Assembly: GCA_025054615.1 (NCBI GenBank)
Contig: JANWZO010000007.1
Span: 1 to 64,000 of the forward strand
DNA from: Kiritimatiellia bacterium
GTDB taxonomy: Bacteria > Verrucomicrobiota > Kiritimatiellia > CAIVKH01
DNA length: 64,000 bases
Reading direction: 5' to 3'
The notes below the pieces were generated by a model. It was not told where the DNA came from. It did no database searches and saw nothing but the letters and a program-made list of their open reading frames with translations. The position numbers were made by a program, and so were the translations under genes. Of the stretch, positions 335 through 56,741 are shown piece by piece (within the stretch, counting starts at the first letter, position 1; the number at the start of each line of letters is the position of its first letter).

Positions 335-1822
335 TTAGCCGGTTGCCACGGCCAGAGCGCGGTCAAGCCGGTCGATGAGGTCGGCAGGCTCTTCCTGTCC
401 GACGGAGATTCGCAGCAGCCATCGCGATACGCCGCAGGCTTCCGCCCAGTCCAGTTCGTCGTAGTGTGCGAGTAGCGTAAACGGGCAACACAAGGTGAAT
501 GTGGTTCCCAAATTCGGCCCTTTGCAGAGTTCGACGGCATTGTAAAAGCGGGCGCTCGTGCGCGCCGGATCGCGCAAAACGAATGAGAAGAGGCCGCCAA
601 ATCCTTCGTTCGGCCGGCGGAAGCGGTCAAACCGATCCCGATCTTGGAACGCCGGGTAATAGACCGTCTCGACCGCTGGGTGATTCCTCAGCCAATCGGC
701 GAGGCGGAGAGCGGATTCGCTGGATTTCCGGATTCGCTGGTCGGCATCGCGGGAGAGGTCTTCGGCCACCACCACGGAGCCGCCCCAGATCACATCGTCG
801 GCCTCTTCCTCAAGCAATTCGCGGAGAAGAGGCGCAAAAGCGCTCGCGGGGTTGATCACCAACGAACCGAGCATCACGTCGCCCCGGCCGGTGAACCACT
901 TGGTGAGGCTGGTCACGAGCACATCTGCGGTCCGAAGCAGGTCGACATTCGTCCACATCGCGATGGTGTCATCGATGATGATGGGGAATCGATGTCGATC
1001 GGCGATGCGGCGAAGGGCTTCGAGGTCTGTGCTGATCAGGACGGGGTTCGAGGGAAACTCACAAAAGAGGGCCGCTGGCGCCTCGCCTTGACATTCCTCT
1101 GCCAGCTGCGCGACGTCAGTCGCGTCGGCTCGTGGGAGGAACAGATGGGGCGACCCAAAATCCTGGATGATTTTAAGCGTGTCGACGTAGGGAAATCCGA
1201 ATTGCACGATACACCGCCCGGGGGCCATCCGCTGCACAACGCGGAAGAGCGTGTAGATAGCGGACATTCCGCAGGAGAACAGTCGAACATCGCTCTCTCG
1301 AACACCAAGGGCGCGGGCGATTCGCTCGCGGATGATTCTTTCCGCCGCATCGCTCGGCGGTTCGGATTCCCCCTCAAGAAGGGCCTGCGCCTGGCGGGAT
1401 GAAAGGCCCTCTCCTGTATGGCGCCAATATTTGAGCGCCCACGTCGTGGCCTCGAGCGGAAACACCACAGCGAACACCCCGCGCCATGGTTTGACCTTTA
1501 CTGCAGAACCGCTCCAGCGACCGACCTGATGGGCGCAGCGTAAAGCCGCCTGCTCTGCGCGGTACAGGTGGCAGTCTTCGCCCTCGGCGCAAACTTCCCT
1601 CTTCGCCTCGAGAAAAAGGGTACGGCAGGCTGGCGGAATGACGAAACGCGGATAGCCCGCCTTCAGTTTGTCAATCACCCGAGGCCTTTTCTCCTCGTAG
1701 TCGATGACATCCTGCCAGGTTGGCAGGCAGACGGAATTGGCGTGCGGCAGGTCGGGCATGGGGGCGCCCAGGTCTTCCGGGCGGCAAAGGGGAAATCGGA
1801 GCAAATCGCGTGGCGAATTCAT
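335..1822 (-). CDS. Cystathionine gamma-synthase-like PLP enzyme (Cys/Met metabolism family, fungal-type architecture)
   Basis: A 495-residue fold-type I PLP enzyme. The PLP lysine is K308 in SLTKWF, preceded by the aspartate of IIIDDTIA (about 281-288) that should contact the PLP pyridine. Bacterial MetB and MetC have about 380-400 residues; here about 100 extra N-terminal residues carry a LPTWQDV...YEE...GYPRF pattern that I associate with fungal cystathionine gamma-synthases. The likely reaction is formation of cystathionine from an activated homoserine and cysteine, but other C-S lyase activities are possible. The ATG overlaps the Top6B stop (ATGA, 1819-1822), so the two are translationally coupled. 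Family call is strong; exact substrate is not. Confidence 0.8.
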   Translation of the reverse strand: MNSPRDLLRFPLCRPEDLGAPMPDLPHANSVCLPTWQDVIDYEEKRPRVIDKLKAGYPRFVIPPACRTLFLEAKREVCAEGEDCHLYRAEQAALRCAHQVGRWSGSAVKVKPWRGVFAVVFPLEATTWALKYWRHTGEGLSSRQAQALLEGESEPPSDAAERIIRERIARALGVRESDVRLFSCGMSAIYTLFRVVQRMAPGRCIVQFGFPYVDTLKIIQDFGSPHLFLPRADATDVAQLAEECQGEAPAALFCEFPSNPVLISTDLEALRRIADRHRFPIIIDDTIAMWTNVDLLRTADVLVTSLTKWFTGRGDVMLGSLVINPASAFAPLLRELLEEEADDVIWGGSVVVAEDLSRDADQRIRKSSESALRLADWLRNHPAVETVYYPAFQDRDRFDRFRRPNEGFGGLFSFVLRDPARTSARFYNAVELCKGPNLGTTFTLCCPFTLLAHYDELDWAEACGVSRWLLRISVGQEEPADLIDRLDRALAVATG

Positions 1823-3564
1823 CGCGTTTCGAGATGGGTCCGTTCCAACATTCGCTTCAACTCCGCCTCCACTCGCGCCTTTTCCGCATCAGACATCTTT
1901 AGAATTTCCTGAAGACCGAGCGCGAGATGGGGAATGTAGGTTTCGATATAGCTGCGTTTACGCGCGGCTTCGAGGTCCCTCTGGCGGCGCTTCAGAAAAA
2001 CAGCCAGCCGGCGCCCGCACTCCTGAAGGGCCAAGGTCATTTCTGACAGGATTTCGTCGTAAGAGGCGATTGCGTCTTTGCTTTCGCTGGTGAAGGGGAC
2101 CCAAACGCTCGCCATGTGGACGATGAGAACGACCGGGCCAAGCGGCAGCGCACCCTTGGGTTGGTTGAGGCCATAGGATTTCCAATTGACCCCGACCACC
2201 GCCTTTGTAATGGCACAAGCGCCAGGCTGATAGAGCAGCGGGACCCGGTTGGCAAACCTCAGGAGGCGAATCGGCTCCTCGTGCCCAAACTCGCCATGGG
2301 GATCCGATTCCCCGGGCCGCGCATAAGCCAGACCTGCCTCGATCTGGAATGGATTGCCCCGGTAGACGGCCGGTTCCCGTGTCACCGCTGTGTAAAAGTC
2401 CGCCTCGATTTCTTTCTGCAAACCGGCGAGGATCTGTGCCTCGCCGATGGGAGACAGGCAATCCGTTGGCGGCCGCATCAGTTTCGTCTCTTGGATCGCC
2501 TTGTATAAGGCCTGGACCTCGTGCGGCGGGATCCGCGCAGGGTTCGTCCGGGGATCGAGTCCTGCACGCTGGCAGATTTGCAACGCGGTTTGCTCACTGA
2601 CGCGCGAGAAATCCGAGGCCAGCGCCGAGCGCAGCGTTCGGGCTTCCGTGTCTTTCAACATCTGCATCAAAAGGCCCAGTTCGACGCCGTGCGGGTGAGG
2701 CATGATTTCGCGCGGGATTTTCGGTAGCTCGTCAACCGCGCGCCGATACGTCAGCACGGTGCGCTGCGGGCTGGCGCCAGCGTCCGGCCGGGCGGGATCC
2801 GCTTTCGGCTTGAGCGTCAATCGATAGTGCAACGTCAGGTGTGGGTTGACGATCGCGCATTGCTTGAGAAATTCGTCGACCGATTGCTTGCCGCGCTGGT
2901 ACTGGGCTTCCATTTCGATGGAGACTGACGTGCCATGCTCGTACACGCGCATTTCCCCGGCCGGGTTCCCTTCGGCGTCGACGTCTTGAAAGGCCGGCCT
3001 CCATTCGGTGGTCTCGTCGGACAGGATCACCGGCTTGTTGGCCCTTGTATCGATTTGCACCGCCATCCGATGGGCCAGTTTGCCCGACCGAATCTTGGAA
3101 AGAATCTGCACGGCGGATCCGGTGGTCAGTTGTCCATACATGCCTGCGGCGCTGATGCCGATACCCTGCTGGCCGCGCGACATGCGCAAGCGATGGAATT
3201 TGGACCCGTACAGCAACTTCGCGAAAATTTTCGGAATCTGCTGTTTGACGATGCCCGGACCATTGTCCGTCACTGTCACTCGAAACCGGTTGTCGGCGAG
3301 CTGATCGACCTCGACCAATATCTCGGGGAAAATCCCCGCCTCCTCACAAGCGTCCAGTGAGTTATCCACTGCTTCTTTTACGGCCGTCAGCAGAGCCCGG
3401 CGGGGAGAGTCAAAGCCGAGCAGATGGCGGTTTTTCAGAAAAAATTCGGAAACGGAAATGTCCCGCTGGCGAGCCGCCATCGATTCGGCCGTCTCGGGGG
3501 CCGGAGGATTCGCGGTACGCCTCGTCCGAGACGGCGACGAGCCTGACTGGTCCTCACGTTTCAT
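1819..3564 (-). CDS. top6B: DNA topoisomerase VI subunit B (type IIB ATPase subunit)
   Basis: A 581-residue protein with the whole Top6B architecture. The GHKL ATPase comes first: N-box EAVDNSLDAC (about 64-73), DNGPGI (100-105) and the glycine box RGQQGIG (130-136). An H2TH-like region follows (about 330-370), then the transducer domain with the conserved SYGLNQPKG segment that supplies the switch lysine, and a C-terminal helix. In archaea and plants this subunit drives strand passage for the Spo11-like Top6A nuclease subunit. No Top6A is adjacent: the upstream gene is a flippase 34 bp away and the downstream gene a PLP enzyme overlapping by 4 bp. It is clearly not GyrB, ParE or MutL. Confidence 0.92.
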   Translation of the reverse strand: MKREDQSGSSPSRTRRTANPPAPETAESMAARQRDISVSEFFLKNRHLLGFDSPRRALLTAVKEAVDNSLDACEEAGIFPEILVEVDQLADNRFRVTVTDNGPGIVKQQIPKIFAKLLYGSKFHRLRMSRGQQGIGISAAGMYGQLTTGSAVQILSKIRSGKLAHRMAVQIDTRANKPVILSDETTEWRPAFQDVDAEGNPAGEMRVYEHGTSVSIEMEAQYQRGKQSVDEFLKQCAIVNPHLTLHYRLTLKPKADPARPDAGASPQRTVLTYRRAVDELPKIPREIMPHPHGVELGLLMQMLKDTEARTLRSALASDFSRVSEQTALQICQRAGLDPRTNPARIPPHEVQALYKAIQETKLMRPPTDCLSPIGEAQILAGLQKEIEADFYTAVTREPAVYRGNPFQIEAGLAYARPGESDPHGEFGHEEPIRLLRFANRVPLLYQPGACAITKAVVGVNWKSYGLNQPKGALPLGPVVLIVHMASVWVPFTSESKDAIASYDEILSEMTLALQECGRRLAVFLKRRQRDLEAARKRSYIETYIPHLALGLQEILKMSDAEKARVEAELKRMLERTHLETR

Positions 3565-46909: not shown

Positions 46910-46946
46910 GAGGGGCGCAACTGGTGCGCCCCTCTACCGGGCGGTA
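46910..46946 (+). promoter_or_regulatory. Structured leader of the TRAP operon (two hairpins before the ribosome site)
   Basis: GAGGGGCGCA (46910-46919) pairs perfectly with TGCGCCCCTC (46925-46934) around a 5-nt loop. A second palindrome TACCGGGCGGTA (46935-46946) follows at once. The AGGAGGAG site lies about 14 bases later. It lacks a T-run, so it is not a plain terminator; a 5'-stabilising stem or an RNA- or protein-controlled element is possible. Confidence 0.5.
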
Positions 46947-46970
46947 AAACGTGTGCAGGAGGAGAATAAG

Positions 46971-48053
46971 ATGCAACTAACCCGGCGTGAAATGATCAAG
47001 GGCGGTGTGTCAACGCTGGCCGGAACCATCGCCGCTAGCGCGCTCGCAACCATGGGCCTTCCAGCCCACGCGCAGGAAAAGAAGGCGGACAAGAAACCGA
47101 AGATCAAGTGGCGCATGCAGACCTATGCCGGAGCAGCGCTCGGTGAACATGTGATCAAGCCGTCGATCGACGCATTCAACATCGCGGCGAACGGCGAAAT
47201 GGTGATCGAGCTGTATTATGCGGACCAGATTGCGCCGCAGGGCGAGTTGGTCCGCGCCCTCCAACGAGGTATCCTCGATGCTGTACAGACCGATGAGGAC
47301 TCCGCCCAGTCGCCGGTGGACATCTCGATCTTTGGGGCCTATTTCCCCTTCGCATCCCAGTTCTCGCTTGATGTGCCGACGCTGTGGAATTGGTACGGGC
47401 TCAATAAGATCTGGGAGGAGGCCTATGCGAAGGTCGACAACGTCACCTTCCTCAGCATGGGCTCATGGGATCCCTGCAATTTCGCGACCACCAAGCCGAT
47501 ACGCTCCTTGGAGGATTTCAAGGGCCTGCGGGTGTACATGTTCCCGACCGGTGGCCAGTTCATGAAACGCTTCGGTGTCGTCCCCGTCTCGTTGCCGTAT
47601 GAAGACGTGCAGATGGCGATTCAAACGAAAGAATTGGACGGCGTTTGCTGGTCGGGCATTACGGAGGTTTACACGGTGGGTTGGGCGGACGTCACGAAGT
47701 ACTATCTGACCAATCCCATTTCCGGCGCTTGGGCGGGAGCTTATCTGGTCAACACCAAGAGCTGGGAATCCCTTCCCGAGCACCTCCGCATGCTATTCAA
47801 GCTCTGCATCGATTACTCGCACTACTATCGTCTGCACTGGTACTGGTGGGGCGAAGCGCACTATCGCGTGAAGGGCGGCAAATTGGAATTGACCTCGCTG
47901 CCGGAATCCGAGTGGAGCAAGGTCCGGCAGGCGGCGTACGAGTTCTGGGATGAAGCGGCCCAAAAGAGCCCTACGACGGCGAAGGTGGTTGAGATCATCA
48001 AAGAGTACAACCAGATCATGGAGAAGGCCGGACCGCCGTATCGATGCGCCTGA
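46971..48053 (+). CDS. dctP: TRAP transporter solute-binding protein (DctP family)
   Basis: About 360 residues. The N-terminus (LTRREMIKGGVSTLAGTIAASALATMG) looks like a Tat-type signal. The mature part has the DctP fold: WRMQTYAG, AFPFASQ-like AYFPFASQFSLDV, LEDFKGLRVYMFPTGG and GVCWSGITEVYTVGWADV. It binds an organic anion or related solute in the periplasm and hands it to the DctQM permease. The ligand is not predictable; the form is close to TakP-type proteins. The ATG at 46971 has AGGAGGAG upstream; an in-frame start at 46953 lacks this. Confidence 0.9.
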   Translation: MQLTRREMIKGGVSTLAGTIAASALATMGLPAHAQEKKADKKPKIKWRMQTYAGAALGEHVIKPSIDAFNIAANGEMVIELYYADQIAPQGELVRALQRGILDAVQTDEDSAQSPVDISIFGAYFPFASQFSLDVPTLWNWYGLNKIWEEAYAKVDNVTFLSMGSWDPCNFATTKPIRSLEDFKGLRVYMFPTGGQFMKRFGVVPVSLPYEDVQMAIQTKELDGVCWSGITEVYTVGWADVTKYYLTNPISGAWAGAYLVNTKSWESLPEHLRMLFKLCIDYSHYYRLHWYWWGEAHYRVKGGKLELTSLPESEWSKVRQAAYEFWDEAAQKSPTTAKVVEIIKEYNQIMEKAGPPYRCA

Positions 48054-48202
48054 TCTTGTACGGGCAGACCGGGATCAACTCAAGGGTCGGGGGCTCCGAA
48101 GTCCGTTCAGCCGCGACAAACTTGCTGTCCGCAAGGTCGACGATTCAGTTCGGGTCCTTCGCCCTTGATGAGCCAACCGGCAGAGCCCGATGGGAATTAA
48201 CT

Positions 48203-48243
48203 CCGGGCTGCGGATCCTATCGGATTCGCAGCCCGGCCTTTTT
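48203..48243 (+). terminator. Intrinsic terminator between the TRAP binding protein and permease genes
   Basis: CCGGGCTGCGGATCC (48203-48217) pairs with GGATTCGCAGCCCGG (48222-48236), a 15-bp stem with one G-U pair and a 4-nt loop, followed by CC and five T (48239-48243). It lies 150 bp after dctP and 75 bp before dctQ. Partial read-through would make more binding protein than permease. Confidence 0.8.
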
Positions 48244-48316
48244 GTTCGCCGTGCGCGGTACGACGCAAATCGACTTGTGCGTCGGATCTGCTGATTGAGA
48301 GCCTGAGAATCGACAT

Positions 48317-48880
48317 ATGAGCATGACCTATCCCGAGCATCCGCCATCCCCTAAGGGTGTGAAGCGCATGCCGGCCGTGATCTGTTGGTACGTCCGAATC
48401 GTAGACGCCTTGGGGAAGGGTGCCGGAGTTGTTGCGATGTTCCTAACCTTCGTCCTGTTAGGGATCCTGGTGGAGTCTTCGATTGCGAGACTGCTTTTTG
48501 GAGTCTCGCACATCTGGAGCGTGGAAATGGCGATGTTTACGATGACGGCCTATTACCTCCTCGGTGGCGCTCTTTCTGAACAGGACAACTACCACGTTCG
48601 GATGGACTTGTTTTACAATCGGCTCTCGCCCCGTGGGAAGGCGATCATTGATAGCATCACCGGACTTTGCGTGATCTTTTATCTATTCTTTCTGTTTACG
48701 GGCGCGGTCAGCAATACGCACTGGGCCTGGACGCACAAGCAGGTGAATTTTTCCGCGTGGGCGCCGCCCATGACGCCGATCAAGGTCATCATGTCTGTGG
48801 GCATCGGGCTGATGCTGCTTCAGGTCATCGCAACGTTCTTTCGCGATCTGGCCCGCGCGCTCGGGAGGTCGATCGAATGA
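48317..48880 (+). CDS. dctQ: TRAP transporter small permease (DctQ family)
   Basis: A 187-residue membrane protein with four hydrophobic segments. The conserved SVEMAMFTMTAYYLLGGALSEQDNYHVRMDLFYNRLSP segment, containing the ...HVRMDL... signature, identifies DctQ. It pairs with DctM in the inner membrane. The start at ATG 48317 lies 74 bp after the intrinsic terminator. The stop overlaps the dctM start (ATGA, 48877-48880). Confidence 0.9.
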   Translation: MSMTYPEHPPSPKGVKRMPAVICWYVRIVDALGKGAGVVAMFLTFVLLGILVESSIARLLFGVSHIWSVEMAMFTMTAYYLLGGALSEQDNYHVRMDLFYNRLSPRGKAIIDSITGLCVIFYLFFLFTGAVSNTHWAWTHKQVNFSAWAPPMTPIKVIMSVGIGLMLLQVIATFFRDLARALGRSIE

Positions 48881-50202
48881 GCTACGAACAAATTGCCCTC
48901 TTCATGTTCACCACGATGCTCGCCCTTCTGGCGACCGGCCAGCGCTTTTTTGGCGTCATCGGATTTGTGGGCATCGCCTCGGCGTTGCTGCTCTGGGGCC
49001 CTCAAACCGCGTCCATGCCCTTTGATGCGGCGATCACCACATTGAACTGGTACCCCCTTCTCACGCTGCCCATGTTCATTTTCATGGGGTACATGTTCGC
49101 CGAAACGGGGATCGCCAGCGACCTATACCGCATGTTTTACGTCTGGTCCGGCCGCTTGCCCGGCGGCTTGGCAATCGGGACCATCGCAATGATGGTCCTG
49201 ATCTCCGCTATCAATGGCTTGAGTGTGGCAGGTTTGGCGATTGGCGCGACCATCGCACTTCCGGAGATGTTGCGCCACGGCTATGACAAGCGGATGGTCA
49301 CCGGAGTCATTCAGGCGGGCAGCACGCTAGGGATTATTGTTCCGCCGAGCGTCGTGCTGGTGTTGTACGGGATGATCGCCCGCGTTCCTGTCGGGCACCT
49401 GTGGTTTGCCGGCGTGTTGCCGGGGCTGCTCATGGCATTTCTCTTTATTCTCTACATTGTGATCCGTTGCTGGATCAATCCCAAGATGGGCCCGCCCATG
49501 TCGCGCGAGGAGCTCGCTGCCATCCCATGGGTAGAGCGGATCAAGCTCCTCCGCGCCGGCATCATCCCGATGCTCATTTTCGCGGTCATGGTTCTGCTCT
49601 TTCTGGGCGGCGTCACCAGCCTGGTCGAGTCTTCCGGGATCGGGATGCTCTCCACGATCCTCGCCGCCTGGGCACGAGGAAAACTCAAGTGGAAGACGCT
49701 CGTTGAGGTCACCCGGAAATCGTTGGGTGTCAGTTGCGTCTTTATGTGGATCATCCAATCGGCCCTGTTGTTTTCAACCGTGTTTGACGGATTGGGCGCC
49801 GGCAAGGCCCTGGAGAATCTGTTTGTCGGGCAATGGCACCTGCACCCGCTTGCAATAGTGGCGTTGATGCAGGCTAGTTTCCTTTTGATGGGAATTTTCC
49901 TCGATGATACGGCCATGCTGGTGATTGTGGCGCCGCTTTATGTGCCTTTGATTCGCAAGCTCGGATTCGACCCGGTCTGGTATGGCATCTTGTACACGAT
50001 CACCTGTCAGGTCGCCTATCTGACGCCGCCGTTCGGCTACAACCTTTTCTTGATGCGCAGCATGGCGCCGCCGGAAATCACGCTGCGGGACATCTATATG
50101 TCCATCATACCGTTTGTTCTGGTGATGATTCTGGCCCTGATCATTATCCTGTTCGTGCCCGAAATCGCGACGGCGCTTCCGAAGTGGTATTTCAGCCGAT
50201 GA
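48877..50202 (+). CDS. dctM: TRAP transporter large permease (DctM family)
   Basis: A 441-residue polytopic protein with about 11-12 transmembrane segments, including LLTLPMFIFMGYMFAETGIA, INGLSVAGLAIGATIALPEM, AGSTLGIIVPPSVVLVLYG and LTPPFGYNLFLMRSMAP, the family hallmarks. It is the sodium-coupled transport subunit. It overlaps dctQ by 4 bp. Its end converges on the glutamine-synthetase-like operon 300 bp away. Confidence 0.93.
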   Translation: MSYEQIALFMFTTMLALLATGQRFFGVIGFVGIASALLLWGPQTASMPFDAAITTLNWYPLLTLPMFIFMGYMFAETGIASDLYRMFYVWSGRLPGGLAIGTIAMMVLISAINGLSVAGLAIGATIALPEMLRHGYDKRMVTGVIQAGSTLGIIVPPSVVLVLYGMIARVPVGHLWFAGVLPGLLMAFLFILYIVIRCWINPKMGPPMSREELAAIPWVERIKLLRAGIIPMLIFAVMVLLFLGGVTSLVESSGIGMLSTILAAWARGKLKWKTLVEVTRKSLGVSCVFMWIIQSALLFSTVFDGLGAGKALENLFVGQWHLHPLAIVALMQASFLLMGIFLDDTAMLVIVAPLYVPLIRKLGFDPVWYGILYTITCQVAYLTPPFGYNLFLMRSMAPPEITLRDIYMSIIPFVLVMILALIIILFVPEIATALPKWYFSR

Positions 50203-50507
50203 CCGGATCATCGGAGGTCTGATCGCAGGTCGTAGCCGCCGACCGCAGTCGAAAGAGATCGTCTGCCGTTAGCCTTGTGGAGGGGGCTCCGCACCCGACG
50301 GAACTAGACTTTGATTCGCCGACGTGGTCGGCCAGCCCGCTGCTGTTCGCGAGTCATGAGTCATGATCAGAGGACCCTGCTGGTTTATTCCTCAGCGGCT
50401 AATCAAATTTGAGCGGGTAAACCCGCCTACGACAGTATATGCGCCGCCTGCAGATGGGCGGCACACTTCGACAATGAACGTTCGATAGATTAAAACGCTT
50501 TGAGCGC
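50203..50507. other. Intergenic region between convergent operons, with two short hairpins
   Basis: No gene is seen. GCGGGT-AA-ACCCGC (50413-50426) and GCCGCC...GGCGGC (50443-50462) form two short GC-rich hairpins. Neither is followed by a clear T-run on either strand, so they are weak candidates for transcript ends. Confidence 0.4.
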
Positions 50508-51872
50508 CTAAATTTGCTCGAAATATCGAGCGCGTTCCCAATCGGTCACGGCGCTTTCGTAGGCGTCCATTTCGCTGTGGGCGGTATGAACGTAAAAATC
50601 AACCACAGCATCCCCGAGGACCGACCTGGCCAGTCGACTCTTGTCGAGGAGGTCGGCAGCTTCGCGAAGGGTTTTGGGAAGGGCTTTGAGATTCTTGTCG
50701 GTGTACGCGTTGCCCTGATACACCTCTCCACAATCGAGGTCTTCTTCGACGCCCGCCATTCCGGCAATGATCATCGCGGCAAAGGCAAGATACGGGTTTG
50801 CGTCGGCGCCGGGCATCCGGTTTTCGATTCGATAGGATGACCCGTGGCCGACCACACGGAACCCGGCCGTTCGATTGTCCATCGCCCAGACCATCTTCGT
50901 CGGCGCCCAGCTCATTGGCTGATAGCGTTTGTAGGCGTTGACAGTCGGCGCCATGAAATAGGACAGCTCCGGCGTGTACTTCAGCAAGCCTCCGAGGAAC
51001 TGTCTGAAAAACTTTGAGCCTTCGTTTCGCTTGGAATCCCAGAAGAGGTTTTTTCCGTCCTTCCAGATGCTGATGTGGATGTGACAACTGCTGCCGGCCT
51101 CTTTGCTGTTGTATTTCGGCATAAAGGTGACGCACTTTCCATGCCGGGCCGCGATTTCCTTAACGCAGAGCTTGAGGATGATGTGTTTGTCGGCCATCGG
51201 CAGGGGATCATCATACAAAATATTCAATTCGTGTTGGCCGCATCCCCATTCGCCCTTAGTTGTTTCCACGGCGATTCCGGCCGATTCCAACATGAGGCGC
51301 ATTTCGCGAAAAATCTCTTCGTCGCGCCCCGGCTGCAAAATGTGGTAGTCGATTCGGTATTCGCTAGAGGGGGCCAGCGCGGCGTATCCGCCCGCCTTGG
51401 CGCTTTGGTAAGTTTGGTTGAAGAGGAAAAATTCGAGTTCGCTCGCGGCCTTGCAGGATAGCGAATGGGACGCGAGCCGTTCGATTTGCCGGCGCAAAAC
51501 CGAGCGCGGGGCTTCTTCAACCAATTTCCCGTCGTGATGGTAGAGGTCGCAGAGTACGAGGGCGGTTCCCGTCTGCCAGGGTAGCGGCCGCGCAGAAGCG
51601 GGGTCAGGAACCATCGAGAAATCACCGAAGCCCTTGTCCCAATTCGCCAACTTGAAACCATCGACAGGGTCCATTTCCATGTTGACGACCAGCAGGTAAT
51701 TGCAGCCGTGGGTGCCGCCATCGAGGATGTGTTCGAGGAAGTAATGACCCGTGGCGCGCTTGCCCATCAAACGCCCCAGCACGTCAGGGAAGGCAACGGC
51801 GACGGTGTCGATTTCGCCGCTCTCGATCTTTTTTTTCAGCCAGCCGATGGGATCAGATGCGGATTTCTTCAT
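50508..51872 (-). CDS. Glutamine-synthetase-like gamma-glutamyl-amine ligase (PuuA/GlnA-like)
   Basis: A 454-residue type I glutamine-synthetase fold. Metal and glutamate residues lie in ASELEFFLF, GQHELNIL and GSSCHIHIS; the ATP-side RIENRMPGADANPYLA is intact. It lacks the adenylylation-loop tyrosine region of housekeeping GlnA and resembles gamma-glutamylpolyamine or gamma-glutamyl-alkylamide synthetases. It is the last of four coupled minus-strand genes with an amidotransferase, an Fe-alcohol dehydrogenase and an aldehyde dehydrogenase. I infer ATP-dependent ligation of glutamate to an amine or amino alcohol. Ten bp separate it from the aldehyde dehydrogenase. Confidence 0.8.
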   Translation of the reverse strand: MKKSASDPIGWLKKKIESGEIDTVAVAFPDVLGRLMGKRATGHYFLEHILDGGTHGCNYLLVVNMEMDPVDGFKLANWDKGFGDFSMVPDPASARPLPWQTGTALVLCDLYHHDGKLVEEAPRSVLRRQIERLASHSLSCKAASELEFFLFNQTYQSAKAGGYAALAPSSEYRIDYHILQPGRDEEIFREMRLMLESAGIAVETTKGEWGCGQHELNILYDDPLPMADKHIILKLCVKEIAARHGKCVTFMPKYNSKEAGSSCHIHISIWKDGKNLFWDSKRNEGSKFFRQFLGGLLKYTPELSYFMAPTVNAYKRYQPMSWAPTKMVWAMDNRTAGFRVVGHGSSYRIENRMPGADANPYLAFAAMIIAGMAGVEEDLDCGEVYQGNAYTDKNLKALPKTLREAADLLDKSRLARSVLGDAVVDFYVHTAHSEMDAYESAVTDWERARYFEQI

Positions 51873-51882
51873 GACTTCAGTA

Positions 51883-53319
51883 TCAAAGTGAAATATAGAC
51901 GTTTTTCAGTTCCGTATACCCCTCCATGGCGGCCATGCCGAGGTCGCGGCCGATGCCGCTTCGTTTGAACCCGCCGAATGGGGCCTCCACGTGAACACTT
52001 GAGTGACAGTTCACGCTCAAGACGCCGCTTTCAACGCGTTTCGCGACGCGGATGGCGCGTTTGAGATCATTCGTCCAAAGCGAGCCGCTGAGTCCATAAT
52101 AGGACTCATTGACCTCGCGGAGCATCGTTTCCTCGTCATCGAACGGCCTTACGCAGACCACGGGGCCAAACACCTCCTCTCGCCAGATTTCATCCGTGGT
52201 CTCGCAACCCAGTACGAGCGCAGGACTCAAGTAATATCCCTTTTCGTAAGGGCGATCTCCGCCGCAGGCAATCGATCGGCCAGCGGACCGCGCACGCTTT
52301 AGGAAGCCCTCAACGGATTCTCGCTGGTTCGCCGAGACCATCGGTCCCACCTGGGTTTCGGGTTTCGATGGATCGCCTACGGCAATACGCCGCGTGGCCG
52401 CTATGAATTTATGGACAAACTCATCAAAGACTTTTCGTTCGACGAAAATTCGGCTTCGTGCGCAGCAATCCTGTCCGCAATTGGCAAAAACGCTCATCGG
52501 CGAGGTCGAGGCCGCCTGATCCAGGTCCGCATCCGCAAAAATGATGTTCGGAGATTTGCCCCCCAGCTCGAGCGACACGCGCTTGATGTCCGGGGCAGAC
52601 ATCTGCAGGATTCGCGCCCCCACCTCCGTGGAGCCGGTGAACGAAATCTTCCGCACCAGCGGATGCTGAACCAATGCTTCGCCCAGCCTCGCGCCGGGAC
52701 CGGCGATGACCTGCAAAACGCCCGGAGGCAAGCCTGCCTCAAGGGCCAGCGCGCCGAGCCGGAGCGCGGTAACCGGTGAAAGGGTGGCCGGCTTGAGTAC
52801 AACCGCATTCCCTGCCGCGAGGGCGGGAGCGACCTTCCACGCGGTGATGGGGAATGGGAAGTTCCAAGGAACGATGGCCGCCACGACGCCCATCGGCTGG
52901 CGCAGGGTGAAGTCAAAACCGCCTCGGGCCACCGGAATGGTCTGGCCATAGAAGAGAGCGATCGCGCCAGCGTAATACTCGAAAATTCTCGCGCCCAGAA
53001 GGACCTCGTCACGAGAGTCGGAGATGGGCTTTCCAATATTCCGAGTCTCGAGTTGCGCCAACTCTTCCGCGTTCTCCCGGATCAATCGGGCGATGCGGAA
53101 GAGAATTTCAGCCCGTTTGCCGGGCGCGAGGTCTCGCCACCCCGCCTCAAACGCACGCTGGGCTCCGCGGACCGCGCGATCTACATCGGAAACCTCCGCA
53201 GCGGCGATCTCGCACCAGGTTTCCTCGGTTGCGGGATTCGTGAGCGGTGTAACTGCCCCTTTTTCGCCATCGACGAACTGGCCGTCGATGATCAATCGTG
53301 TTTCACATGGCTTGCTCAT
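51883..53319 (-). CDS. NAD(P)-dependent aldehyde dehydrogenase (BetB/PuuC-like)
   Basis: A 478-residue ALDH superfamily enzyme. The catalytic Cys is in FANCGQDCCARSR, the general-base Glu in VSLELGGKSPNII, and the NAD strand VVAAIVPWNFPFP is complete. Its closest type is betaine-aldehyde and amino-aldehyde dehydrogenases. In the operon it should oxidise the (gamma-glutamyl)amino aldehyde made by the alcohol dehydrogenase. It overlaps the Fe-ADH gene by 17 bp. The final YTELKNVYISL end is typical. Confidence 0.9.
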   Translation of the reverse strand: MSKPCETRLIIDGQFVDGEKGAVTPLTNPATEETWCEIAAAEVSDVDRAVRGAQRAFEAGWRDLAPGKRAEILFRIARLIRENAEELAQLETRNIGKPISDSRDEVLLGARIFEYYAGAIALFYGQTIPVARGGFDFTLRQPMGVVAAIVPWNFPFPITAWKVAPALAAGNAVVLKPATLSPVTALRLGALALEAGLPPGVLQVIAGPGARLGEALVQHPLVRKISFTGSTEVGARILQMSAPDIKRVSLELGGKSPNIIFADADLDQAASTSPMSVFANCGQDCCARSRIFVERKVFDEFVHKFIAATRRIAVGDPSKPETQVGPMVSANQRESVEGFLKRARSAGRSIACGGDRPYEKGYYLSPALVLGCETTDEIWREEVFGPVVCVRPFDDEETMLREVNESYYGLSGSLWTNDLKRAIRVAKRVESGVLSVNCHSSVHVEAPFGGFKRSGIGRDLGMAAMEGYTELKNVYISL

Positions 53320-54415
53320 AGAGTTTGCGAAGATCCTCTCGAGTTACCGGTACTGGATTGGTCAGGTGGCATGAATCGGCAAAAGCCTGGTCCGCGAGCT
53401 CGTCCAATTGGCTCTCCTGCACGCCCTGTGCGCGCAACCCGCCGCCGAGCCCAATGTCCTCCAGCAAGCCCCGGATGCGGTCAATCACCGCGGAGTCGGA
53501 CGGTTGGGGCAAATCCAGCGCGATCCCGACTCGGCGGTACAGGCCGGGTTTGCGCCGGGCGTTGAAGGCCATCACGTGGGGCAGGCAAAGGGCGTTGGCG
53601 GTGCCGTGGTGCAGCCCGCAAAGGCTCGAGAGAGGATGCGCCAGGGCATGGGTCGCGCCCAGATCCTTCTGGAAGGCAATCCCGCCCATCATCGCCGCCA
53701 CCAACATTTCGCCTCGCGCCTCGATATCGGCGCCATTCTTCACCGCGCGGGGAAGAGCGTTGTGGATGATTCGAATCCCTTCCAGCGCGATGCCATCGCA
53801 GAGGGGGTGATACACCGGAGATGTGAATGATTCGATGCAATGCGTTAGAGCATCCGCGCCTGTCGCTGCCGTAAGCCGCGGCGGCAGACCGACAGTCAGT
53901 TCCGGGTCCAGGATGGCCAGACTGGCCAGCAGCGAAGGATGGAAGATGACTACCTTTTTGCCGTTAAGGATGATCACAGAACTCCGGCCGACCTCGCTGC
54001 CTGTACCTGCCGTAGTCGGAATGGTCACGCACGGCGGAAGCCCGCTCCAATCCGCATTAAAATCGAATTCGGAGAGAGTTTTGTCGGGACGCTTAATTCG
54101 CAATCGTATCACCTTCCCAACATCGAGCGCACTTCCGCCTCCGAGCGCAATCACTCCGTCACAGCGATGGTCCCGATACGCGGCAAAAGCGGCCTCCACA
54201 TCGGATTCGGCGGGATTCGGTTGAACGCCGCTGAACACGGGATAGCGGCCCCGATTAATTTCGTCGAATCTTCGATAGGCCTCCGTTCGAATCAAGCCTG
54301 CGTCAGTAACCACAAGAGGCTGGCGCATCCCGAGGCGCTCCAGGCGCGCCGGAAGCTCCAGTAGGGCGCCAGGTCCGAAGAGAATCGATGTGGGAAAAGA
54401 AAACGATGCTTTCAT
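53303..54415 (-). CDS. Iron-containing (group III) alcohol dehydrogenase
   Basis: A 370-residue Fe-ADH. It has FSFPTSILFGPGALLELP at the N-terminus, the nucleotide loop ALGGGSALDVGKVI, TTAGTGSEVG, and metal ligands in GADALTHCIES, HALAHPLSSLCGLHHG. It oxidises a primary alcohol to an aldehyde with NAD(P). Coupled to an aldehyde dehydrogenase and a glutamyl ligase, it probably acts on an N-glutamylated amino alcohol or the free amino alcohol. The ATG overlaps the amidotransferase stop (ATGA, 54412-54415). Confidence 0.9.
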   Translation of the reverse strand: MKASFSFPTSILFGPGALLELPARLERLGMRQPLVVTDAGLIRTEAYRRFDEINRGRYPVFSGVQPNPAESDVEAAFAAYRDHRCDGVIALGGGSALDVGKVIRLRIKRPDKTLSEFDFNADWSGLPPCVTIPTTAGTGSEVGRSSVIILNGKKVVIFHPSLLASLAILDPELTVGLPPRLTAATGADALTHCIESFTSPVYHPLCDGIALEGIRIIHNALPRAVKNGADIEARGEMLVAAMMGGIAFQKDLGATHALAHPLSSLCGLHHGTANALCLPHVMAFNARRKPGLYRRVGIALDLPQPSDSAVIDRIRGLLEDIGLGGGLRAQGVQESQLDELADQAFADSCHLTNPVPVTREDLRKLYEQAM

Positions 54416-55164
54416 GAAGAGAATTTCCTACACAGATTGGCGAAATTTTTCAGGATTTTCGGTCCTTCTGGGGTGGGCCGAAGCTCGGACAGCCGTTCAT
54501 CGATGTCGAAGTCGCATCGATCCCGCCACGTCTGCCGACGGGGCTCCCAGATGAAGCGGAGGATATCTGGGTCATGCTCGGGATGGAATTGAACTCCTCG
54601 CAGAACATCGCCGTAACGGAAAGCCTGAATGGGAGTTTGGCGTCCGCTCGCAAGAAGCGTTGCGCCCGCGGGCATTGTTTGAACCGAGTCTTGATGGCTC
54701 TCCATGGCTTCAAATGAGAGGGGGACGCCCTCGAATAATGGATCGAGCCGCCCCTCGGGTGTCAATTCGATGGTGGTGTTTCCGAGTTCGACGCCGGCCG
54801 GATCGCGCCCGACCTTTGCTCCGAGGGCGACGCCGAGCAGTTGGTGACCATAGCAGACCCCCAAGAATGGAATTCGAGCCTGTTCGCAACGCAAAATCAC
54901 GTCCACCAAGCGCTCGTTGAAGCGGTCGCGCGCCCAAGCGTCTCGTGGCGAGCCGCTGATAATGACGCCCGCCGTGCTCGGTCTGAATACGGCCTCGGCC
55001 ACATCCTCTCCGGCGGGCACGACGACCGGCTCGAGTTCCGGCAGGCCGCGCAAAAACCGTGCAAACCATTCTCCAACATTGCGCAACGGATGAGGGTTCG
55101 GGTAAGCAGGTGACCATTCGACAGCATCAATAATGATGATGGTGCGTCGAGTCGGTGACGGCAT
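54412..55164 (-). CDS. Class I glutamine amidotransferase-like hydrolase (GuaA-N/IpuF-like)
   Basis: A 250-residue GATase1 domain with the nucleophile elbow GVCYGHQLLG, IISGSPRDAW and the His-Glu pair QFHPEHDP. There is no fused synthetase. In gamma-glutamylation pathways a hydrolase of this type removes the glutamyl group in the last step; it is GMP-synthase-like in form rather than the classical PuuD fold. It is the first gene of the operon and diverges from sdaA with 226 bp for two promoters. Alternative: an orphan amidotransferase of another pathway. Confidence 0.78.
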   Translation of the reverse strand: MPSPTRRTIIIIDAVEWSPAYPNPHPLRNVGEWFARFLRGLPELEPVVVPAGEDVAEAVFRPSTAGVIISGSPRDAWARDRFNERLVDVILRCEQARIPFLGVCYGHQLLGVALGAKVGRDPAGVELGNTTIELTPEGRLDPLFEGVPLSFEAMESHQDSVQTMPAGATLLASGRQTPIQAFRYGDVLRGVQFHPEHDPDILRFIWEPRRQTWRDRCDFDIDERLSELRPTPEGPKILKNFANLCRKFSS

Positions 55165-55268
55165 AGGGCGCGGACTGTATCAAAATTTTTTCCCGTCGCA
55201 AGAATCTGAAAGTGACAAGCGGTTCCGACACACCGCGTCGTAAACTAAATAGAGCAAGAATATGTGCT

Positions 55269-55284
55269 CACCTCGGCTCAGGTG
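55269..55284. promoter_or_regulatory. Inverted repeat in the divergent promoter region
   Basis: CACCT-CGGCTC-AGGTG is a perfect 5-bp inverted repeat with a 6-bp spacer, 105 bp upstream of the amidotransferase start and 107 bp upstream of sdaA. A second, looser pair CAACGC...GCGTTG lies at about 55329-55359. Both are candidates for operators of a regulator not encoded nearby. Confidence 0.25.
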
Positions 55285-55390
55285 CCGCCATCATGTAGGA
55301 ACCTAGATTTTGACCATGAGAAAGCATCAACGCTGGCTAATCGGCCACCTCGGCGTTGATGGCCGTTTAGATACGGGGTAGATTTTTCTT

Positions 55391-56686
55391 GTGATCGTTG
55401 AAACCAGCGTCTTCGACATCTTCAAAATCGGGATTGGGCCATCGTCGTCCCATACGATGGGACCCATGCGCTGCGCTCAGCTTTTCCTCGAGGCGCTTTC
55501 GAAAAATGGCGCGCCGTCCAGAATCCGCGTTCGCCTGCACGGTTCACTAGGCGCGACAGGCCGAGGGCATGCCACCGACCGTGCGCTTGCCCGCGTGTTA
55601 CCGGCGGATGTGTTTCAGCCGGATCGGGATATTGAATGGTTGCCGGATACTCCGAATCTGCCTCATCCGAATACGTTGGACCTCATCGCTCAAGACGCTG
55701 AAGGGCGTACCCTTCTGGAACAGCGCTATGTCTCCGTCGGCGGTGGGCTGGTTGAACAGGTGATGCCGGATGGATCGCGTGTCCGAGATTATCCGTTTGT
55801 GCCAGCGAGGCCAGTGTTCCGCGTGAGTTCCGCCGCGGAAATTTTGCAGATTTGCGCCGAAAAGGGATTGAAATGGTCGGACATTCAACTCGCGAATGAG
55901 GCGCTTTCTCGTGAAGAGGTTTTCGCGAAACTCGAGACTATCTGGAAAACCATGCGGGAGTGCATTCAGCGAGGCATTTCGACCGAGGGGCTCCTGCCGG
56001 GCCCGCTCAATGTGCGGCGGCGCGCGCCCGCCGCCTACCGGCGGTTACTTGAGCAGGCCGGGTCCTCGGTCCCGCTTCGTGATCCCATGGAATTGCGCGT
56101 GCACGCCTACGCGCTCGCCGTGAATGAAGAGAATGCGGCAGGCGGTACAGTCGTTACGGCGCCCACCAATGGCGCAGCGGGTGTTGTGCCCGCTTCCTTT
56201 GCGGCCTGCCAGGATGCCTATGGGTTCACCAGTGAACAAATCGCCCGGGGTCTCTTGACGGCGGCGCTGATCGCTGGGTTGATCAAACTCCACGCTTCGC
56301 TGTCCGGCGCCGAGATGGGTTGCCAGGGCGAGGTAGGCTCGGCCTCGGCCATGGCGGCAGGCGGCTTGACGGAAATGTTCGGCGGAACCCCGGCTCAGGT
56401 GGAAATGGCCGCCGAGATCGCGCTCGAACACCACCTCGGGATGACCTGCGACCCTGTAGGGGGCCTCGTCCAGATTCCGTGTATCGAACGAAATGTGATG
56501 GGCGCCGTAAAGGCCCTCCATGCGGCGACTTTGTCGCTGAATAGCGATGGCACTCACCGTATCTCGCTCGACCAGGCGATCGCGGCGATGCGCGAGATCG
56601 GCCTGAACATGCACGCGCGGTACAAGGAGACGGCTCAGGGCGGCCTTGCCAAGGTCCTCGTTGACGAGTCGCATGTGAAGTGCTGA
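55391..56686 (+). CDS. sdaA: L-serine ammonia-lyase, single-chain iron-sulfur type
   Basis: A 431-residue [4Fe-4S] serine dehydratase. The beta-domain start is SVFDIFKIGIGPSSSHTMGPM; the alpha domain has VTAPTNGAAGVVPA, SGAEMGCQGEVGSASAMAAG and TCDPVGGLVQIPCIERN, which carry the cluster cysteines. It converts L-serine to pyruvate and ammonia. The start is GTG without a clear ribosome site. The divergent position beside the amino-alcohol operon may indicate that a glycine/serine product is disposed of as pyruvate, though that link is inferential. Confidence 0.95.
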   Translation: MIVETSVFDIFKIGIGPSSSHTMGPMRCAQLFLEALSKNGAPSRIRVRLHGSLGATGRGHATDRALARVLPADVFQPDRDIEWLPDTPNLPHPNTLDLIAQDAEGRTLLEQRYVSVGGGLVEQVMPDGSRVRDYPFVPARPVFRVSSAAEILQICAEKGLKWSDIQLANEALSREEVFAKLETIWKTMRECIQRGISTEGLLPGPLNVRRRAPAAYRRLLEQAGSSVPLRDPMELRVHAYALAVNEENAAGGTVVTAPTNGAAGVVPASFAACQDAYGFTSEQIARGLLTAALIAGLIKLHASLSGAEMGCQGEVGSASAMAAGGLTEMFGGTPAQVEMAAEIALEHHLGMTCDPVGGLVQIPCIERNVMGAVKALHAATLSLNSDGTHRISLDQAIAAMREIGLNMHARYKETAQGGLAKVLVDESHVKC

Positions 56687-56741
56687 AGCCGATCCGAGCA
56701 TTCCTAGCTCGAACAAAACCGCGACCTTTCGCGGGCAGGCG

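Follow-up and report, generated by a model that had tools for sequence, protein, structure and literature searches.

The window analysed here is the whole of a 64,000-nucleotide stretch of DNA from a Kiritimatiellia bacterium. Between positions 50508 and 55164 it carries, on the minus strand, four intact and tightly packed ORFs whose Pfam scores lie far above the cut-offs, and the first-pass annotation had assigned all four to the right families. In order of transcription, they encode a class-I glutamine amidotransferase (GATase)-type hydrolase, predicted to act on gamma-glutamylglycine (54412 to 55164; PF00117, 78 bits); an Fe-dependent alcohol dehydrogenase (Fe-ADH), a predicted gamma-glutamylethanolamide dehydrogenase (53303 to 54415; PF00465/PF25137, 147/173 bits); an aldehyde dehydrogenase (ALDH) predicted to convert the gamma-glutamylated aldehyde to gamma-glutamylglycine (51883 to 53319; PF00171, 563 bits); and a glutamine synthetase (GS)-like ligase, a predicted ethanolamine gamma-glutamylase (50508 to 51872; PF00120, 347 bits). 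The hydrolase and Fe-ADH genes overlap by 4 bases, the Fe-ADH and ALDH genes by 17, and 10 bases separate the ALDH and ligase genes, a spacing as in a compact operon.

Right about the four genes, the earlier description was nevertheless incomplete, as it left out a convergent set of TRAP transporter genes and a divergent serine dehydratase gene, both kept with the operon in a second genus (locus L091, below). The TRAP genes lie on the plus strand at 46953 to 50202 and code for an EtoX-type substrate-binding protein, a predicted ethanolamine binder (46953 to 48053), an EtoV-like small permease, DctQ (48317 to 48880; PF04290, 74 bits), and an EtoW-like large permease, DctM (48877 to 50202; PF06808, 226 bits), whose start overlaps the dctQ stop. 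The L-serine dehydratase gene, also on the plus strand (55391 to 56686; TIGR00720, 479 bits, above the cut-off), would provide an exit to pyruvate. No shared operator or conserved promoter motif was found between the region upstream of the TRAP genes and that between the hydrolase and serine dehydratase genes, and searches for Rfam elements and tandem repeats found none. Just 5′ of the binding-protein gene, an inverted repeat has perfectly matched 10-base arms around a 5-base loop (GAGGGGCGCAACTGGTGCGCCCCTC; 46910 to 46934, plus strand); no counterpart was seen in L091. A gene for a Fur/PerR-family regulator (PF01475; 46299 to 46712, minus strand) is divergent from the binding-protein gene. 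We did not adopt it as the regulator of the locus because it was not found beside the conserved block in L091.

The same four-gene order was found outside this genome, in another genus of its family (L091, genome G006; 63 to 81% identity) and in a Verrucomicrobia metagenome-assembled genome (MAG) (L011; 43/56/64/61% identity), showing that the arrangement is not due to chance. In G006, the TRAP, ligase, ALDH, Fe-ADH, GATase and serine dehydratase genes are kept as one block with 63 to 88% protein identity, the serine dehydratase at 79%. The flanks are not conserved, and at the DNA level the block corresponds to about 46995 to 56690 of the window. In the stretch of L011 examined, neither a TRAP nor a serine dehydratase gene adjoins the enzyme operon.

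Comparison of the TRAP binding protein with the PDB gave 479 bits for Csal_0678 of Chromohalobacter (4UAB and 4XF5), the next structure scoring 61. The protein has a Tat-like signal, and an ATG at 46971 is possibly its true start. Csal_0678 is an ethanolamine-binding protein in which Glu220 serves as platform residue (PMC12410723), and it is devoid of the Arg that TRAP binding proteins usually have, the residue that selects for carboxylates (PMC4646407). In the window protein, E238 occupies the position of the platform Glu, the correspondence with Glu220 being positional and deduced from construct numbering, and Y195 that of the usual Arg. The protein also aligns closely with eto-type proteins. 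Phaeobacter EtoX binds ethanolamine with a Kd of 7.9 μM (PMC10132767). Its plasmid-borne homologues form one group at 54 to 62% identity, followed by a drop to about 27%, and several members of this EtoX-type group adjoin GS, ALDH and Fe-ADH genes. Relative to the eto-type systems of Paracoccus, Marinovum and Chelatococcus, identities are 57 to 61% for DctP, 36 to 42% for DctQ and 60 to 63% for DctM. The system is predicted to be an importer of the ethanolamine type. On a Chelatococcus plasmid, an EtoX-type TRAP system is found near EutBC (L007, 1398 to 3570 and 4963 to 7948). This proximity is an independent pointer to ethanolamine, the same type of importer possibly feeding a different ethanolamine route there.

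Catalytic residues of the enzymes were assigned by motif. The hydrolase has C104-H194-E196 and the ALDH has C285/E251; the metal ligands of the Fe-ADH are D188/H192/H256/H270, with Asp and His conserved in the eto-cluster homologues. The roles of these positions in catalysis or metal binding follow those of reference enzymes. The Fe-ADH is 42 to 44% identical to its eto-type counterparts (44% to that of Paracoccus). The ALDH shares 49% identity with that of an Arthrobacter GS cluster and only 33% with the Paracoccus eto ALDH. The hydrolase scored below all NCBIfam amidotransferase cut-offs. Among structures, GMP-synthase amidotransferase subunits match it better than gamma-glutamyl peptidase 1 does (9k7i, 6e-17); the distant likeness to this peptidase, suggestive only, is the nearest clue to function for this putative gamma-glutamylglycine hydrolase.

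The ligase is 43 to 46% identical to eto-type ligases; its closest PDB entries are 11zs and 5dm3, with canonical GS far behind. Its nearest relatives come from Limisphaerales and other Verrucomicrobiota MAGs. In the tree, it groups with ligases from amine-catabolic clusters: the window ligase, that of G006 and four Verrucomicrobiota MAG sequences form one clade (100/99), and the alphaproteobacterial eto ligases form a separate one (100/99). At a threshold of E ≤ 1e-130, the ligase was present in 2 of 346 genomes from the class and in 2 of the 388 phylum genomes sampled, counts that include the source genome itself (G000). A search of 38 relatives recovered EtoX from these same two genomes, and none was detected in the source genomes of the closest ligases (L009 to L012 and four others). 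This patchy distribution suggests gain or frequent loss.

On these grounds we hold, with considerable confidence, that the locus serves ethanolamine catabolism of the eto, or gamma-glutamyl, type. The substrate would most likely be ethanolamine, and the products glycine and glutamate. The TRAP system would bring ethanolamine into the cell, and the ligase would join it to glutamate at the expense of ATP to form gamma-glutamylethanolamide. The Fe-ADH would oxidize the free alcohol of this intermediate to the aldehyde, and the ALDH would convert the aldehyde to gamma-glutamylglycine. The class-I GATase-type hydrolase would then release glycine and glutamate, the latter to be recycled. Glycine would probably be converted to serine by serine hydroxymethyltransferase (SHMT), and the divergent serine dehydratase would yield pyruvate and ammonia. 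Genes for SHMT and glycine decarboxylase are present at other sites in the genome. The sequence of glycine, serine and pyruvate is suggested by the linkage in two genera, as the serine dehydratase gene is conserved with the block in the second genus and the flanks are not. Gene content, intact catalytic motifs, an ethanolamine-type binding protein and conserved linkage form the basis of this reading; from them we infer the substrate of each enzyme and the serine exit.

The first-pass annotation had proposed that an amino alcohol is glutamylated, oxidized twice and released by hydrolysis. This chemistry is well supported as a prediction: it fits all the evidence and gains strength from the adjoining ethanolamine-type transporter. 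Ethanolamine, then one candidate substrate among several, agrees with the data, and the choice can probably be narrowed to it. Several observations count against the eto-type reading. The hydrolase and the ALDH are not orthologues of those of Phaeobacter and Paracoccus, the enzyme operon of L011 is without adjoining TRAP and serine dehydratase genes, and transporter and enzyme genes are convergent, with no shared operator found.

The same chemistry might serve another amino alcohol, alaninol, serinol or 3-aminopropanol, with alanine or another amino acid as the product, which we regard as improbable. IpuC-type ligases use related amines, and Paenarthrobacter IpuC is a 37% homologue of the window ligase; moreover, 4XF5 presumably shows Csal_0678 again, bound to a ligand of the alaninol type. 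However, the ethanolamine-associated ligases are closer to the window ligase than IpuC is, the adjoining serine dehydratase suits glycine as a product more than alanine, and homologous binding proteins have been reported with ethanolamine as ligand (PMC10132767, Kd of about 7.9 μM; PMC12410723). Still less credible is a polyamine operon similar to Puu, in which a putrescine-type amine would be glutamylated and oxidized. The ligase and the ALDH do resemble PuuA- and PuuC-type models below cut-off, but the ligase reached only 240 bits with the gamma-glutamylputrescine synthetase model (cut-off, 650), the operon is without a flavin oxidase, the Fe-ADH requires an alcohol, which glutamyl-putrescine does not have, and the transporter linked to the operon belongs to the ethanolamine type. 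That the ligase is an ordinary, ammonia-using glutamine synthetase beside dehydrogenases for an unrelated alcohol is just as implausible: although PF00120 has just one further match in the genome, that match, on contig 3, may cover ammonia assimilation, and the ligase falls below the NCBIfam cut-offs for GlnA (267 versus 429) and type III GS (262 versus 470), clusters with amine-catabolic ligases and has a conserved linkage to an ethanolamine-type transporter.

The gamma-glutamyl route to ethanolamine breakdown, our preferred reading, had been put forward as a distinct, undescribed version. That claim does not hold, as a pathway made of ligase, Fe-ADH, ALDH, hydrolase and TRAP transporter has been described for the eto-type operon of Phaeobacter sp. 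MED193 (EtoX/V/W, ETAGA, GAADDH, GETADH and GGAH; Westermann 2023, PMC10132767); for Streptomyces, a short-chain-dehydrogenase version is on record (PMC6529630). The single Phaeobacter operon encodes an RpiR regulator, a gamma-glutamylglycine amidohydrolase, the small and large TRAP permeases and EtoX, followed by ethanolamine gamma-glutamylase, gamma-glutamyl-aldehyde dehydrogenase and gamma-glutamylethanolamide dehydrogenase; its proteins were raised on phosphorylethanolamine, and the pathway figure is labelled as predicted (PMC10132767). That paper calls the genes close relatives of a set whose function had been demonstrated in A. tumefaciens and C. salexigens (Vetting et al. 2015, cited in PMC10132767); elsewhere, the C. 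salexigens pathway is called an in silico prediction (PMC6529630). Clusters in the published Phaeobacter order were found in Paracoccus denitrificans (L003) and Marinovum algicola (L006), the Paracoccus hydrolase belonging to PF05013 (FGase).

The window shares with the eto-type system the families of the TRAP transporter, the GS-like ligase and the Fe-ADH, as well as an ALDH and a hydrolase, so that all steps are present. In contrast, its hydrolase is a class-I GATase in place of the FGase-family enzyme of the Paracoccus counterpart, its ALDH comes from another subfamily, its ligase belongs to the separate Verrucomicrobiota clade, transporter and enzyme genes are convergent and not in one operon as in Phaeobacter, and a serine dehydratase is attached but no RpiR regulator. 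In Streptomyces coelicolor, the cluster combines GlnA4 with a short-chain dehydrogenase, an ALDH and a glutamine amidotransferase (PMC6529630). It resembles the window in its GS-like gamma-glutamylethanolamide synthetase, alcohol-type dehydrogenase, ALDH and glutamine-amidotransferase-type hydrolase, but it has the short-chain enzyme in place of the Fe-ADH, and a permease or no transporter in place of TRAP. The Puu and isopropylamine/alaninol (Ipu) pathways, offered earlier as the comparison, are not the nearest relatives, the eto type being closer. Puu has a GS-like ligase, an ALDH and a class-I GATase-fold hydrolase in common with the window, but uses a flavin oxidase on the amine where the Fe-ADH is predicted to act on the alcohol. 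Ipu shares glutamylation, alcohol oxidation and hydrolysis, but its ligase is only about 37% identical and acts on another substrate; we know of no link between Ipu and a TRAP-type transporter. As for the Eut pathway, EutB (PF06751) was not found in the genome by a search that was positive in the E. coli control. Plasmids of Allomeiothermus and Thermomicrobium (L004 and L005) carry the ligase with a short-chain dehydrogenase, the latter plasmid with an additional gene annotated as ethanolamine permease; these represent the short-chain-dehydrogenase version of the gamma-glutamyl ethanolamine pathway outside Actinomycetes.

What sets the locus apart is confined to its hydrolase family, ALDH subfamily, gene arrangement and lineage. 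FGase (PF05013) was not found in the whole genome, and the class-I GATase takes its place; the genome is 95% complete, so that the absence of FGase and EutB is not absolute. FGase hydrolases were seen in the alphaproteobacterial clusters and may be dispensable for an eto-type pathway. When ligase loci were tallied by searching within 6 kb for proteins similar to a few queries, a basis on which "none" may mean undetected or a contig end, the Fe-ADH occurred with FGase in nine loci, all alphaproteobacterial, and with a GATase in L011 and L013 (Bryobacterales); most of the remaining loci pair short-chain dehydrogenases with C26 or GATase hydrolases. There may be a Verrucomicrobiota-like version of the pathway, in which a GuaA-like class-I GATase replaces the FGase-type enzyme as gamma-glutamylglycine hydrolase and, with an Fe-ADH, a patchily distributed ethanolamine TRAP system and a dedicated serine dehydratase, makes up a compact ethanolamine-to-pyruvate module; we consider the chances for and against this proposal evenly balanced.

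Ethanolamine derived from phosphatidylethanolamine of broken-down membranes is an abundant source of carbon and nitrogen. A literature search for a gamma-glutamyl ethanolamine pathway in Verrucomicrobia returned nothing relevant. Known from Alphaproteobacteria, Chromohalobacter and Streptomyces, the pathway would through this locus reach a lineage close to Verrucomicrobiota. The locus suggests which hydrolase family performs the last step where FGase is missing, and leaves the basic picture of the chemistry unchanged. It also has value for annotation, as such genes are otherwise labelled just "glutamine synthetase", "Fe-ADH" or "GATase".

At the other end of the window, an ORF at 338 to 1822 that matches a PLP enzyme, and not an A subunit, adjoins a gene for a topoisomerase VI B subunit (1822 to 3564, minus strand; Topo-VIb_trans, 191 bits), here in a bacterial genome; topoisomerase VI is known mainly from archaea and plants.
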